Shown here piece after piece: positions 1-9,978 of a stretch of 14,035 nt of DNA. Each line of letters starts with the position of its first letter. The first letter of the stretch is position 1. This stretch comes from an uncultured bacterium (GTDB lineage: Bacteria; Planctomycetota; UBA1135; GCA-002686595): contig CADEGS010000054.1 in assembly GCA_902826945.1 (NCBI GenBank), positions 1 through 14,035 on the forward strand. Reading direction: 5' to 3'. Made by a program: the position numbers and the translations under genes. The notes under the pieces were generated by a model. The model saw only the letters and a list, made by a program, of their open reading frames with translations, was not told the origin of the DNA and did not search any database.

Positions 1-1952
1 GCCACCTGGCGGATGTAGGTCGACTTGCCCGACATGTTCGGGCCGGTCAGGATCGAGAGACGCCGCTCGCGCGCGTCGAGGTGCGCGTCGTTCGGCACGA
101 AGCTCTCGACGGCCGTCGAGCGCTCGAGCACCGGGTGGCGGCCCTCGACGATCGCGATCGCGTCGCCCTCGTCGATCGTCGGCGCGACGTAGCGCTGCTC
201 GGCCGCGACCTGCGCCAGGCCGACCAGGCAGTCGAGGCGCGCCAGCGCGCGCGCGGTGGCCAGGATGCCCTCGAGCTCGCCGGCGAGGAAGTCGCGCAGC
301 GCGCAGAAGAGGTCGTACTCGAGCTGGTGCGCGAGCTCCTCGGACTTGAGCACCCTCGTCTCGAACTCCTTGAGCTCGGGCGTGATGTAGCGCTCGGCGT
401 TCTTGATCGTCTGCTTGCGCACGTAGCTCGCCGGCACGCGCTCGAGCTGCCCGCGCGGCACCTCGAGGAAGTAGCCGAAGACCGAGTTGAAGCCGATCTT
501 CAGGCCGGGCAGCCCGGCGCGCACGCTCTCCTCGGCCTGGAAGCGCGCCATCCAGCCCTTCGCGTCGCCGGCGATCTGGCGCAGCTCGTCGAGCTCGGCC
601 GAGAAGCCGGCGCGCACGATGCCGCCCTCGCGCAAGGTCAGCGGCGGGTCGTCGGCGAGCGTCGCCAGCGCGCGCGCCGTCGCGTCCTCGAGCGGGTCGA
701 GCGCGCAGGCGACGTCGGCCAGCTCCGCCGACGCGCACGCGCCGAGCGTCGCGAGCAGCGCCGGCACGCGCGCGAGCGAGCGCGAGAGCGCCACGAGGTC
801 GCGCGCGTTCGCGCGGCCGGTGGCGAGCTTGCCCGCCAGGCGCTCGAGGTCGAGCACGCGCTCGAGCTCCTCCGCCAGCGCCTCGCGCCGCTCGGGCGCG
901 GCCACGAGCTCGGCCACGCCGCCCTGGCGCGCGCGGATCGCCGCGACGTCGCGCAGCGGCGCCAGCACCCACTCGCGCAGCAGGCGCGCGCCCATCGCCG
1001 TGCGCGTGGCGTCGATCGCGTCGAGCAGCGTGCCCTCGCGCCGGCCCTCGCGCTGCGTCGCGACGAGCTCCAGGCACGCGCGCGTCGCGGCGTCGAGCAC
1101 GAGGTGCGCGGAGCGCTCGACCTTCTCGATCCCGAGCACGTGCTGGCAGGTCGCCTTCTGCGTCTCGGCCGCGTACTCGAGCAGCGCGCCCGCGGCGGGC
1201 ACGATCGGCGAGCCGGCCTCGATCCCGAAGCCCTCCAGCCCCTTCGTGCGGAACTGGCGCACGAGCGCGCGCTCGGCGCCCTCGCGCGCGAAGCGCCACG
1301 GCTCGCGCGGCGTGAGAAGGGTCCCGAGCTTCGCGCACAGATCGCGCAGGCCGGCGCGCGCCTCGAGCAGGTCCTCCGCGACGAGCAGCTCGGCCGGCCG
1401 CACGCGCGCCAGCTCGTCGGCCAGCTCGCCTTCGGCGAGCTCGCTCGCCTGCAGCCGCCCGGTCGAGAGGTCGAGCCAGGCCAGCGCGCCGCCGTCTTTC
1501 GCCAGCACCAGCGCGCCGAGGAAGGCGCTCGCGCGCGCGTCGAGCGCGTCCTCCTCGGTCAGCGTGCCCGGCGTCACGATGCGCACGATGCCGCGCTCGA
1601 CGATGCCCTTCGCCTCGCGCGGGTCCTGGAGCTGCTCGCAGATCGCGACCTTGAAGCCCATGCGCACGAGCCGCACCAGGTAGCCCTCGGCCGCCTTGAC
1701 CGGCACGCCGGCCATCGGGATCGGCTCCTCGGAGCCCTTCGAGCGCGAGGTGAGCGTCAGCCCGAGCGCGCGCGACGCCTCGACCGCGTCCTGGTGGAAG
1801 AGCTCGTAGAAGTCGCCCATGCGGAAGAAGAGCAGGGCGCCGGGCGCCTCCTTCTTCGCGCGCCAGAACTGCTCCATCATCGGCGTCTCCTGGCCGACGG
1901 TGCGCTGCTGCGGCGCGCGCGCGCCGCGGGCGACGATGCGGGAGCGGGCCAT
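1..1952 (-). CDS. mutS: DNA mismatch repair protein MutS (C-terminus outside window)
   Basis: MutS binds mismatches and small loops in DNA and, through its ATPase, recruits MutL to start strand-directed repair. The visible part is 650 residues. It opens with the mismatch-recognition domain, containing the GDFYELF motif whose Phe48-x-Glu50 is the mismatch-contacting pair. The connector and lever region follows (a TAMGARLLREW stretch is typical), then the clamp. The ATPase domain begins near residue 585 (EGRHPVLE) and the window ends just after Walker A (GPNMSGKST, about residues 637-645). Walker B and the dimerisation tail lie outside. The start at 1952 is chosen because it leaves a short leader before the conserved TPMM, as in known MutS. 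An internal ATG at 1880 has a better ribosome site (AGGAG at 1887-1891, 6 nt away) and would still keep the FYE motif. The gene is divergent from the channel gene at 2134. Family assignment is essentially certain; the start is less so. Confidence 0.97.
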   Translation of the reverse strand, partial: MARSRIVARGARAPQQRTVGQETPMMEQFWRAKKEAPGALLFFRMGDFYELFHQDAVEASRALGLTLTSRSKGSEEPIPMAGVPVKAAEGYLVRLVRMGFKVAICEQLQDPREAKGIVERGIVRIVTPGTLTEEDALDARASAFLGALVLAKDGGALAWLDLSTGRLQASELAEGELADELARVRPAELLVAEDLLEARAGLRDLCAKLGTLLTPREPWRFAREGAERALVRQFRTKGLEGFGIEAGSPIVPAAGALLEYAAETQKATCQHVLGIEKVERSAHLVLDAATRACLELVATQREGRREGTLLDAIDATRTAMGARLLREWVLAPLRDVAAIRARQGGVAELVAAPERREALAEELERVLDLERLAGKLATGRANARDLVALSRSLARVPALLATLGACASAELADVACALDPLEDATARALATLADDPPLTLREGGIVRAGFSAELDELRQIAGDAKGWMARFQAEESVRAGLPGLKIGFNSVFGYFLEVPRGQLERVPASYVRKQTIKNAERYITPELKEFETRVLKSEELAHQLEYDLFCALRDFLAGELEGILATARALARLDCLVGLAQVAAEQRYVAPTIDEGDAIAIVEGRHPVLERSTAVESFVPNDAHLDARERRLSILTGPNMSGKSTYIRQV

Positions 1953-7285: not shown

Positions 7286-7729
7286 ATGAAGAACCACGTC
7301 ACGCATCCCGTCCTCTCCGCGCGGCTCGCGCCGGCCCTCGCCTGCCTGGCGCTCGTGTGCGCCTGCGTCTCCAAGCCCAGGGGGCAGGCCCAGAACACCT
7401 ACGTGGGCGGCGAGGGCCAGGAGATGGAGGCGCGCGTGGGCAACCGCGGCCTCGAGCGCGACCTCGACATCCTGCGCCCGATGTCGCGCCGCGACGAGAG
7501 CGGCCGCCTGCAGGTGCAGTTCGAGCTGCACAACAAGAAGACGAGCGACTTCGCCTTCGAGTACGCCGTCGTCTGGCGCGACGCCGCCGGCTTCGTCGTC
7601 CCCACGCCCTGGCACTGGACGCCGATGTCGATCGCAGGCCAGGGCTACCGCACCGTCTCCGTCACCGGCCCGACCCCCGAAGCGTGCCAGTGGGAGCTCC
7701 ACGTCCAGAAGCCCAGCGCCGTGCGCTGA
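7286..7729 (+). CDS. YcfL-type (DUF1425) lipoprotein
   Basis: This 147-residue predicted lipoprotein has an N-terminal hydrophobic stretch ending in the lipobox V24-C-A-C27. The mature part has one immunoglobulin-like beta domain: strands around LQVQFELHNKKTSDFAFEYAVVWRDAAGF, then WHWTPMSIAGQGYRTVSV and a final strand near QWELHVQKP. The N-terminal half of the domain, with its HNKKTSDFAFEYAVVWRD pattern, and the conserved position directly before an LpoB homologue both match YcfL, which precedes lpoB in Escherichia coli. Molecular function of YcfL is not established. The gene is 35 bp after the COG3014-type gene and 22 bp before the LpoB-type gene, so the three are very likely co-transcribed. 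No strong ribosome site precedes the ATG. The family call rests on order plus fold-like pattern, and is less certain than the LpoB call. Confidence 0.75.
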   Translation: MKNHVTHPVLSARLAPALACLALVCACVSKPRGQAQNTYVGGEGQEMEARVGNRGLERDLDILRPMSRRDESGRLQVQFELHNKKTSDFAFEYAVVWRDAAGFVVPTPWHWTPMSIAGQGYRTVSVTGPTPEACQWELHVQKPSAVR

Positions 7730-7751
7730 ACCCCGACCCCATCCAGAACCC

Positions 7752-8384
7752 ATGAACGCCAAGATCCCGCTCCTCCTCGCCACGATCCTGGGCTCGGCCG
7801 CGTGCAGCAGCATCGGCTACGAGGACCCCGGCAAGACCGAGACGATCAACATCGACTACGGCTCGACCGACCTGCAGTCGTTCGCCGCGGAGATGGTGAA
7901 CTCGCTCGTCAGCGCGCCGCAGCTCAACTACCTCGACAGCTCCGGCAAGGGCGAGGACAAGCGCATCATCGCCTACGTCGGCGACGTCGAGAACCGCACG
8001 GCCGAGCACATCGACACGCAGGGGATCACCGACAAGATCGAGACGCAGCTCCTGAAGAGCGGCAAGTTCCGCTTCGTCGCCGCCGACGCCGGCCAGAAGG
8101 AGATCGGCGACCAGGTGCGCTTCCAGCAGGAGTCCGGCCGCGTGCGCGAGGACATGATGCGCTCCTTCGGCAAGCAGCTCGGCGCGGACGTGATCCTGTA
8201 CGGCACGCTGCGCTCGATCGAGAAGAAGAAGGGCTCGTCGATCGAGTCGGGCGGCACCCGCAAGCAGGACGTCTACTACCAGTTCGTGCTGCGCTGCGTG
8301 AACATCGACACCGCCGAGACGATCTGGATCGAGGAGAAGGAGCTGCGCAAGACCGAGCGCACGGGCATCTTCGGGCGCACCTGA
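7752..8384 (+). CDS. lpoB: LpoB-type penicillin-binding-protein activator lipoprotein
   Basis: This 210-residue outer-membrane-type lipoprotein has a lipobox ending at Cys18 (GSAAC), although Ser at -3 is not ideal. In Escherichia coli LpoB reaches through the periplasm to activate the bifunctional peptidoglycan synthase PBP1b. Here a short linker (residues 20-65) leads into the globular domain. It has the family strand and helix KRIIAYVGDVENRTAEHIDT (70-89), then ITDKIETQLLKSGKFRFV and GADVILYGTLRSIEKK. The final strand pair (YYQFVLRCVNIDTAETIWIEEKELRKT) is typical of the CsgG/LpoB-like fold. It is the last gene of the three-gene operon and is followed 12 bases later by a strong hairpin. No PBP1b gene is in the window, so the partner is unknown; if the host is a planctomycete, the target could differ from the enterobacterial one. 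The symbol is given by homology only. Confidence 0.85.
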   Translation: MNAKIPLLLATILGSAACSSIGYEDPGKTETINIDYGSTDLQSFAAEMVNSLVSAPQLNYLDSSGKGEDKRIIAYVGDVENRTAEHIDTQGITDKIETQLLKSGKFRFVAADAGQKEIGDQVRFQQESGRVREDMMRSFGKQLGADVILYGTLRSIEKKKGSSIESGGTRKQDVYYQFVLRCVNIDTAETIWIEEKELRKTERTGIFGRT

Positions 8385-8395
8385 GCGGACGGGCC

Positions 8396-8429
8396 GGAGG
8401 ACTCCGCGCGCCTCGCGCGGGTCCTCTTG
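8396..8429 (+). terminator. strong terminator hairpin after the lipoprotein operon
   Basis: The left arm is GAGGAC (8397-8402), a single unpaired T (8403) and CCGCGCG (8404-8410). A CCT loop (8411-8413) separates it from the right arm CGCGCGG (8414-8420) and GTCCTC (8421-8426). All 13 pairs are Watson-Crick, and the stem sits 12 bases after the LpoB stop. The tail is only TT then GCCCC, so it is a stem without a good U-tract. It most likely separates this operon from the satD unit. Confidence 0.65.
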
Positions 8430-8448
8430 CCCCCGCGCAGGGCCTCGA

Positions 8449-8528
8449 GATCGGCTCTCCCGCCGAACTGTCAATGGATTCGGCAATCGAGCCGAACTAC
8501 GATCCGATTCGGCCTCAGAGCCGAATCG
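8449..8528 (+). promoter_or_regulatory. three tandem palindromic operator candidates with 29-bp period before satD
   Basis: Three inverted repeats share the form TTCGGC-N6-GCCGAA. Site 1 is TCGGC (8451-8455) and GCCGA (8462-8466). Site 2 is TTCGGC (8479-8484) and GCCGAA (8491-8496). Site 3 is CGATTCGGC (8505-8513) and GCCGAATCG (8520-8528), a perfect 9-bp arm pair. Their centres lie at 8458.5, 8487.5 and 8516.5, exactly 29 bp apart. The block starts after the upstream terminator and ends 2 bases before the satD ATG, in sequence visibly richer in A/T than its surroundings. This is what a multi-site operator looks like. The C-terminal helix-turn-helix of SatD itself is the obvious candidate reader. 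A weak -10-like TACGAT at 8498-8503 lies between sites 2 and 3, with no convincing -35. Confidence 0.7.
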
Positions 8529-8530
8529 CC

Positions 8531-9220
8531 ATGGCCGCATCGCTCCCCGTCGCCCTGATCGGAGACCTGGTCGGCTCCCGCGAGGAGCCGCCCGCGGTGC
8601 GCCAGGAGCTCCAGCGCACGGTCGCCGCGCTCGTGCGCGAGGAGGTCGAGCGCCTCGGGCCCGCCCGGCTCGCCGGCCCGCTGGTCCAGACGGCGGGGGA
8701 CGAGATCCAGGCGCTCTTCCGCGGCCCCGACGGCGTGGTCGAGCTCGTCTCCCGGGCGACCGAGCGCCTGCTCGGCCGGGCGGCCGACCGGCCGATCGCC
8801 TTCGGCATCGGGCTCGGCGCGCTCACGACGCCGCCGCTGCCGGAGCCGCCCGGCCAGATCGAGAACGTGGCGCTGGCCGACGGCCCGGCCTTCCATCGCG
8901 CGCGTGCGGCCCTCGAGCGCGCCCGCAAGCGGCGCGAGTGGGCCGTGTTCGAGGGCTTCGGCGCGACGGGCGACCTGGTGCTCGACGCGCTCTTCCAGTC
9001 GATGTGGGCGCTGCGCGGGCGCTGGACCGCGGTCCAGGGGCTCTATGCGCGCGAGATGCGCCGGCTCGGCGTGCAGAAGGAGGTCGCGCGCGAGCACGGG
9101 ATCAGCCCCTCGGTCGTGAGCGAGAGCCTCAAGGCCGCCTCCTTCGACGTCGTCCTGGCCTCCGAGGAGGCGGCGCGCCGCGCGCTCGCGCACTTCGCGG
9201 CGCTCGCGGAGAGGCCATGA
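8531..9220 (+). CDS. SatD-family protein: cyclase/GGDEF-like palm plus C-terminal helix-turn-helix
   Basis: This 229-residue soluble protein matches the SatD family, named after an acid-tolerance locus in Streptococcus mutans; its biochemical activity is not known to me. Residues 7-17 read VALIGDLVGSR and residues 53-63 read QTAGDEIQALF. They are followed by FGIGLGAL (91-98) and DGPAFHRAR (117-125). The order D-L-V-G-S, G-D-E, hydrophobic-G-x-G and a late A-x-R resembles class III nucleotidyl cyclases and GGDEF domains, with Asp12 and Asp57 as possible metal ligands; this is inference. Residues 175-205 form a helix-turn-helix (KEVAREHGISPSVVSESLK). An in-frame ATG at 8474 exists, but the 19 intervening codons have far more A/T at third positions than the gene and lie inside the operator repeats, so 8531 is chosen. 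No Shine-Dalgarno precedes it. The stop overlaps the next start (ATGA). Confidence 0.8.
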   Translation: MAASLPVALIGDLVGSREEPPAVRQELQRTVAALVREEVERLGPARLAGPLVQTAGDEIQALFRGPDGVVELVSRATERLLGRAADRPIAFGIGLGALTTPPLPEPPGQIENVALADGPAFHRARAALERARKRREWAVFEGFGATGDLVLDALFQSMWALRGRWTAVQGLYAREMRRLGVQKEVAREHGISPSVVSESLKAASFDVVLASEEAARRALAHFAALAERP

Positions 9221-9978
9221 GCGCGCTCCCGCCCTCCGACCTTCCGGGCGCCACCGCCACGCTCGGCGCGCTGCTCGTGTGCGGCCACCTGCTGTCCGAC
9301 TTCGCCCTGCAGAGCGCGTGGATGGTGCGCCACAAGGCGCGCCGCCCCGCCGCGCTCCTCGCGCACGCCGCGGTCGTCTTCGCCGCGCAGGCGGCCTGCG
9401 TGCTGCCCGCCTTCCGCCACCCCTTCGGCCTCGTCCTCGCGGCCGGGATCGCGGCGCTGCACGCGGCGATCGACCTGGCCAAGGGGCGCGCGGTCCCGCG
9501 CTTCGCGCTGGCGCCGTTCCTGGTGGACCAGCTCCTGCACCTGGCGACCCTCGCCCTGGCGCTGCGCCTGTGGCTGTGGCGCTTCGGCGGGCCGCCGCCG
9601 ACCCCGCTCGGGCCCGACGCGCTCGCCGCGGCCTACCGCGCCGCCGTCTTCGTCGGGGCCTACGCCTTCAACTGGAACGGCGCCTCGGCGATCGTCACGA
9701 GCGTGCTGGCCTCCGTCGGCGCGGACGCCTCCGAGCCGACCGGCGCGCGCCCGGCGCGGGTCGGGCGCGTGATCGGGATCCTCGAGCGCATGCTGGTCCT
9801 GACGGCGGTGGCGCTCGGGCAGTGGGGGGCGGTGGGCTTCGTCGTCGCGGCCAAGTCGATCGCGCGCTTCAAGCAGCTCGAGCAGCAGGACTTCGCGGAG
9901 AAGTATCTGGTCGGCACGATGACCAGCGTCCTCGTCGCCGTGGCGAGCGGCTGGCTGGTCGGCGCGCTCACCGCGTAG
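9217..9978 (+). CDS. DUF3307-family integral membrane protein, partner of SatD
   Basis: This 253-residue membrane protein has about six hydrophobic segments. It carries the residues I associate with DUF3307. These are GHLLSDFALQ with His24 and Asp28 in the first segment, His50 in the second, HAAIDLAKG with His82 and Asp86, and VDQLLH with Asp104 and His108. Near the C-terminus are GRVIGILERMLVL, the lysine motif AAKSIARF (211-218) and EKYLVGTMTS (228-237). Conserved His and Asp within or beside membrane segments suggest metal binding or catalysis, but no activity is established. The start ATG overlaps the satD stop by four bases, with GGAG at 9208-9211 as ribosome site, so the two should be translationally coupled. 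SatD and DUF3307 genes are commonly adjacent in other genomes, as far as I recall, which supports a shared job, for example SatD signalling to, or controlling, the membrane protein. Confidence 0.82.
   Translation: MSALPPSDLPGATATLGALLVCGHLLSDFALQSAWMVRHKARRPAALLAHAAVVFAAQAACVLPAFRHPFGLVLAAGIAALHAAIDLAKGRAVPRFALAPFLVDQLLHLATLALALRLWLWRFGGPPPTPLGPDALAAAYRAAVFVGAYAFNWNGASAIVTSVLASVGADASEPTGARPARVGRVIGILERMLVLTAVALGQWGAVGFVVAAKSIARFKQLEQQDFAEKYLVGTMTSVLVAVASGWLVGALTA

Follow-up and report, generated by a model that had tools for sequence, protein, structure and literature searches.

Palindromes in a 29-bp phase in front of satD genes: candidate operators for autoregulation by SatD

INTRODUCTION

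Three palindromes spaced at exactly 29 bp precede satD in the stretch of DNA analysed here (14,035 bp, called the window throughout), and pairs of palindromes in the same phase recur in front of satD genes of bacteria and archaea. The array is real and general. Judged from sequence comparison, its best reading would be that SatD itself binds these sites and autoregulates its own gene, most likely by repression. What the computation shows is the array with its recurrence and phase, how the sites covary with the SatD recognition helix, the fold predicted for SatD and the order of the genes.

The SatD family (PF16264) takes its name from secretion and acid tolerance D of streptococci, and the window protein scores above the family cut-off. 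Published work gives its context. In S. mutans, SatCDE is encoded with Ffh, YlxM and ABC transporters, and the satCDE cluster is two- to threefold up on fructose (PMC12077213). In S. pyogenes, satD is carried by 178 of 249 genomes and is the only accessory gene whose essentiality score falls within the top quarter (PMC11323703). A Fusobacterium SatD is assigned to acid resistance by annotation (PMC10326533), SatD appears among the changed proteins or transcripts of streptococci (PMC10210942, PMC5786311), and a further report cites the sat operon in its reference list only (PMC4408037). In contrast to the S. mutans sat genes, satD of the window is followed by a membrane protein gene. The preliminary description of this DNA knew of no operator for SatD proteins; likewise, the available text of the openly licensed literature on SatD, the sat operon, PF16264 and DUF3307 gave no description of SatD as a DNA-binding protein or with an operator.

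RESULTS

Three dyads in phase in front of satD

Copies of TTCGGC-N6-GCCGAA start at 8450, 8479 and 8508, both steps being exactly 29 bp (Table 1). The three palindromes with 6-nt spacers and a 29-bp phase before satD, as well as the shorter arms of the first copy, are thereby confirmed as the preliminary description gave them. The last copy, whose core TTCGGC-CTCAGA-GCCGAA occupies 8508-8525, does have the perfect 9-bp arms ascribed to it, but it abuts the start codon only nearly: two bases separate the end of the dyad from the ATG at 8531. The slight rotation proposed for proteins on neighbouring sites has to be corrected. At 10.5 bp per turn, 29 bp make about 2.76 helical turns, which turns adjacent sites by about 85 degrees against each other.

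Table 1. Coordinates of the candidate SatD operators and of the two genes that follow them in the window
Feature	Position	Strand	Characteristics
Distal candidate SatD operator dyad	8450..8467	.	ATCGGC-TCTCCC-GCCGAA; one mismatch to consensus; 5-bp inner arms
Middle candidate operator dyad	8479..8496	.	TTCGGC-AATCGA-GCCGAA; 29 bp past distal dyad; in the best pair of the window
Proximal candidate operator dyad	8505..8528	.	Perfect 9-bp arms CGATTCGGC-N6-GCCGAATCG; 29 bp past middle dyad
satD	8531..9220	+	PF16264, 43.4 bits (cut-off 29), residues 7-216; proposed regulator binding the three dyads
DUF3307 membrane protein gene	9217..9978	+	PF11750, 58.7 bits (cut-off 23); 4-bp overlap with the satD stop; partner proposed to be co-regulated

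These three places are the only ones in the whole window with at most one mismatch to TTCGGC-N6-GCCGAA; with up to three mismatches there are 25 matches against 14.05 expected. An array score that leaves half-site and spacing free was compared with that of 100 simulated first-order Markov windows over 43 spacings. The best three-site array of the window (35/36) was reached by none of the simulated windows, and its best pair (24/24) by two of them.

A scan of positions 8370-8600 gave neither a sigma-70-like promoter nor a terminator. An inverted repeat, GAGGAC/GTCCTC with a GC-rich interior, lies at 8397-8426 between the LpoB gene and the distal dyad; it might be a terminator, although the scan gave none. 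On the same strand, 5' of the candidate operator region, genes for DUF1425 and LpoB lipoproteins (penicillin-binding protein activator family) occupy 7286-8384.

The array recurs in front of satD in several phyla

A protein collection provided 87 SatD relatives, 45 of which were aligned, and a scan of a viral-contig collection gave no relatives in viral contigs. The first locus set holds the best 80 of 198 loci found, from named genomes, or 81 loci with the window; the DNA of the closest SatD relatives, P0002-P0004 (73-56% identity), lies outside the locus sets. The second set was obtained by whole-genome searches in four groups, with a SatD match in 16 of 294, 69 of 398, 33 of 246 and 52 of 247 genomes, and by a fifth search of two genomes, both with a match; at most 30 loci were taken per search. 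From its 108 loci, 101 were used after dropping six from genomes already in the first set and one whose upstream sequence is shorter than 150 bp. L103 of this set duplicates L006, and the set counts 100 loci without it. Four pairs with near-identical satD DNA are also present in the second set, and clustering at 50% identity merges such pairs.

Matched at 10 or more of its 12 positions in the 280 bp before satD, the motif of the window occurs at 72 sites in 25 of the 80 other loci; 1,963 control windows drawn from these loci contain 78, spread over 71 windows. The enrichment per base is 23-fold at this threshold, 64-fold at 11 or more and 160-fold at 12. Among 47 spacings between neighbouring sites, 31 are of 29 bp, one of 28 bp and two of 30 bp; a spacing of 47 bp was seen five times, in haloarchaea. 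The carriers include Planctomycetota, an Acidobacteria MAG, a Gemmatimonadetes MAG, Candidatus Eisenbacteria, a Pseudomonadales MAG, a Thermoplasmatales MAG and six haloarchaeal genomes. The motif search in front of satD orthologues, which had been proposed as a check, thus found the array in several phyla with the same 29-bp spacing.

The phase is kept without fixing any base

Plain counts of 6-N6-6 dyads barely separate upstream from control sequences when one mismatch is permitted (1.3-fold); exact arms give 3.2-fold. We therefore used pairs of dyads that share one half-site, with no bases fixed and with score thresholds of our own choice. Odd spacer lengths score too in the dyad counts, which we read as adjacent sites mirroring one another over the 11-bp linker.

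With 6-bp arms, 29-bp pairs were found in 35 of the 81 first-set loci, window included, where 1,746 control windows predict 0.65; without the window the count is 34 of 80. Pairs at 28 bp were found in seven of the 81, and no other distance between 20 and 45 bp gave pairs in more than one locus. With 8-bp arms, the first set without the window gave 29-bp pairs in 36 of 80 loci (0.75 expected). The second set gave, with 6-bp arms, 29-bp pairs in 29 of 101 loci (29 of 100 without L103; 1.09 expected in either case) and 28-bp pairs in nine (2.3 expected); with 8-bp arms the corresponding counts are 40 of 101 (40 of 100 without L103; 0.97 expected in either case) and 12 (2.54 expected). At the remaining distances, 8-bp arms gave 0 to 5 second-set loci, several exceeding expectation, and arrays of alike A+T-rich sites might produce this excess.

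All 182 loci were then reduced to 105 clusters at 50% SatD identity, the first member of each being scored for distances of 24-35 bp. A 29-bp pair is present in 45 clusters (1.14 expected) and a 28-bp pair in 12 (1.21 expected), with five clusters at 27 bp (2.1 expected) and five at 30 bp (1.7 expected). The 28-bp distance is a minor second peak and the remaining distances are near background. One locus, L029, has a 30-bp spacing both before satD and at the satD 3' end.

Absence of the palindromes from satD orthologues had been named as an argument against protein binding. Here, 40 of the 81 loci in the first set score at or beyond the 99th percentile of the controls; the other 41, about half, stay below it, a main limit of the binding model. 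Loci without a phased pair include those of Sporomusa and Pelosinus (L042, L045, L053) as well as L006, L022, L033, L037, L054, L055, L062 and L070. Some satD genes without a pair may sit within longer operons.

Paired sites are concentrated at satD

Twenty genomes, chosen since their satD carries TTCG-type sites, were searched for the paired pattern. With up to three mismatches it has 38 places in 19 genomes, one to three in each, and none in the remaining genome; the reversed control pattern has two places, in two genomes. A similar density of the motif in unrelated places had been named as a second argument against protein binding. Instead, 30 of the 38 places in these chosen genomes are at satD, and so are 27 of the 29 with at most two mismatches. 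The eight places off satD comprise G017:C37 (one mismatch, locus L082), G008:C17 (two mismatches) and six with three mismatches. None of the paired places listed for G015 and G020 is at satD, the reasons at these satD genes being the 30-bp spacing of L029 and, in L046, the half-site TTCGCC.

The L082 place (L082:1501-1547, in a Halolamina genome) is a paired operator-like site whose neighbours are genes other than satD. An ORF near it (402-1394, minus strand) contains a HExxH stretch, which we take to be the motif of zinc peptidases.

Half-sites covary with the recognition helix of SatD

Half-sites are clade-specific, with an unchanged phase. The half-site TTCGG is found with the recognition helix SPSVVSESL or KSTVSESL, TTGGC with DESTVSKAL, TTAGC with SEATVSKSL or AESTVSRSL, TCACC with QNVEKRC, GTTTAAA-like half-sites with AVYKNI or PAFYKN, TATAAG with SQPAV and TGAAACA with RDQIWKRRKTL.

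Correlations were calculated for loci scoring at least 29 only, i.e. 40 of the 81 loci of the first set and 80 of the 182 of both sets. Over the 40 loci, half-site difference correlates with recognition-helix difference (r 0.66), a value reached by none of 2,000 permutations; the partial correlation is 0.56 for the helix when the cyclase domain is controlled for, and -0.01 in the reverse case. Over the 80 loci, r is 0.65 (none of 1,000 permutations) and the partial correlations are 0.48 for the helix and 0.19 for the cyclase domain. Among distant pairs of these 80 loci, the half-site difference is 0.43 for the six pairs whose helices are most alike, 0.40 for the 60 pairs that follow, and then 0.52 and 0.60. 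The trend is imperfect, and the correlation does not fully remove shared ancestry. As a correlation among related sequences the covariation falls short of proof that SatD binds, and it is mainly because of this covariation that SatD itself is the likely binder.

In some loci, sites lie over the start codon or a promoter-like sequence, or near the satD stop

Twelve loci have the downstream member of the pair in frame over the first satD codons, and in 11 of these it keeps the same distance (-27) to a conserved position of the SatD protein. The start codon is upstream of the site in eight of the 12, so that the site encodes the N-terminal peptide of SatD, e.g. MKQFGKNAES; TTC GGC NNN NNN GCC GAA reads in frame as Phe-Gly-x-x-Ala-Glu or a variant. 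Such an operator-encoded N-terminal peptide, Phe-Gly-x-x-Ala/Thr-Glu-like, was observed in L007, L008, L011, L014, L018, L027, L028 and L031.

Promoter-like sequences were checked in 16 relatives and the window, with no shuffled control, and overlap the dyads in seven of the 16 relatives. A -10-like box fills the N6 of a paired dyad in L018, L031 and L039, with TTGACA or TTGACG 17 bp earlier; the box is one base off in L011, and L007, L008 and L027 have weaker versions. No comparable -10-like box with a -35 was found in the dyad N6 of the other nine of the 16 relatives. Were the -10-like boxes true promoters, the transcript would have almost no leader, and SatD would occupy the polymerase site.

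For the 80 loci with pairs, sites of matching half-site number 18 in the 14.4 kb that lie within 90 bp of satD stops (12 loci), compared to 38 in 399 kb elsewhere. A second 29-bp pair with the same half-site is present at the satD 3' end in L008, L027, L028, L067 and L113, and L018 has a 29-bp pair there by the fixed motif. The two pairs are about 660 bp apart in L008 and L028. For the window, the same-half-site search around the satD stop (within 90 bp) gave no further site.

SatD and its membrane partner

The predicted model of SatD (pLDDT 95.6) consists of a nucleotidyl-cyclase-fold domain (about residues 1-160) and a C-terminal helix-turn-helix with helices at residues 167-202, and matches the cyclase palm fold. 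D12 and D57, which we take to be the metal-site motifs of class III nucleotidyl cyclases, are invariant in 45 sequences and aligned with Rv1900c. The profile match of SatD to Rv1900c alone is not significant (E 0.19) and Foldseek gives low TM-scores (query-based, 0.36 and 0.38 for the two best hits). Few of the 45 members are matched by known helix-turn-helix models: LacI two, sigma-70 region 4 two, HTH_10 three, and other models one to three. From class III nucleotidyl cyclases and GGDEF domains, SatD would differ by the C-terminal helix-turn-helix joined to the predicted cyclase fold.

Downstream proteins were scanned with Pfam for 59 of 76 locus picks (17 were left out) and for the window gene, and 41 of these 60 match DUF3307 at E ≤0.01. 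A 4-bp overlap of the downstream gene with the end of satD was counted in 28 of 77 picks; several GC-rich picks in this count, the window among them, are in the wrong frame. In several of the loci L190-L201 (same phylum as a Rhodohalobacter genome), the partner position is taken by a smaller hydrophobic protein (about 105-115 aa). The short partners of L191 and L193 show the stretches GVLERLFL and AFGALKIGT, like the C-terminal part of DUF3307-type partners. A Foldseek search of the DUF3307 model against the PDB gave no convincing match (best E 0.93). PADLOC defence models gave no match among four proteins scanned, a result that holds for the systems in this library.

DISCUSSION

SatD is very probably a sequence-specific DNA-binding regulator of its own operon, autoregulating satD and its partner through paired palindromes. 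That the array serves protein binding, as initially suggested for the window, is supported at the level of sequence by recurrence at 29 bp, covariation with the helix, concentration at satD in the 20 chosen genomes and arms devoid of a G-U preference. In the mechanism that we infer, a dimer of the C-terminal helix-turn-helix would bind one 18-bp palindrome, and two dimers (three in the window) on palindromes 29 bp apart would contact each other, perhaps via their cyclase-fold domains. Such a contact between neighbouring dimers is indicated by the phase of 28-29 bp, which is kept across different half-sites; we propose that the phase is fixed and the bases free because neighbouring dimers touch. 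Bound SatD would most likely repress satD and the membrane protein gene downstream, since in some of the relatives a promoter-like sequence or the start codon lies beneath the pair. Where a second 29-bp pair exists at the satD 3' end, it could allow looping or act as a roadblock.

Control of satD in each clade by a transcription factor other than SatD, bound to these sites, is improbable. Binding by SatD is something we infer, and a neighbouring regulator would be a conceivable binder; however, the half-site tracks the recognition helix of SatD. Moreover, in the 20 chosen genomes 27 of the 29 paired places with at most two mismatches are at satD, so that a separate regulator would need to serve satD specifically and to vary together with the helix of SatD.

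Still less probable is an action of the palindromes as RNA, in which leader hairpins of the satD transcript would block translation or protect the message. The sites are situated at the start codon, the window region folds better than its shuffles on both strands (z -3.27; other strand -4.44), and three further hand-picked upstream regions give z values of -2.83, -2.38 and -2.92, but the minus strand folds no worse. Arm mismatches do not prefer wobbles either: the innermost position has 12 T-G against 15 C-A in 67 sites, the outer arms have 0 wobbles in 31 mismatches, and all half-site types together have 66 wobbles against 60 C-A. The symmetry is therefore that of a DNA dyad, not of an RNA hairpin. 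With a -10-like box in the dyad N6 (L018, L031, L039), much of that site would moreover lie upstream of the transcript, and hairpins leave the fixed phase of 28-29 bp and the covariation with the SatD helix unexplained.

Repeats arisen by chance, or a mobile or REP-like repeat spread through the genome, are hardly credible: GC symmetry is common in a GC-rich window, loose matches (up to three mismatches) number 25 for 14 expected and the best pair score was reached in 2 of 100 simulated windows, but the three-site score was reached in none of the 100, paired sites are not spread (one to three places each in 19 of 20 genomes, none in one), and relatives already contradict these origins, the spacing alone being common to loci with different half-sites.

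Autoregulation by SatD can be compared with known autoregulated or paired-operator systems, such as toxin-antitoxin operons and the looping repressors lac and gal. As in these systems, the putative regulator gene satD comes first and the partner second, often overlapping, and the palindromes lie over promoter-like sequence or the start, with a second pair downstream in some loci. Unlike these systems, the satD sites keep a phase of 28-29 bp while their half-sites vary, in bacteria and archaea.

More speculatively, and less likely than not, satD and its partner might form a two-gene module, widespread in bacteria and archaea, in which the cyclase-fold domain senses or makes a nucleotide, its presumed ligand, upon which SatD leaves the 29-bp-phased operators; the membrane protein, harmful in this view, would then be produced only when a signal calls for it. 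A published hint that the partner may be toxic without satD comes from S. pyogenes, where satD is accessory yet essential (PMC11323703). If the module exists, loss of SatD would derepress the partner and an accessory gene would be essential wherever it is present. The autoregulation model could in this way account for the status of satD in the S. pyogenes transposon data (PMC11323703), and it predicts that satD would be dispensable where the membrane partner is absent.

Autoregulation would provide a function open to experiment for a family whose Pfam name derives solely from an operon and which is usually accompanied by a protein domain without known function; the genomes with satD range from Planctomycetota to haloarchaea. 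With a fixed phase and clade-specific half-sites matching the helix, rules that lead from helix to site may become readable over many natural pairs.
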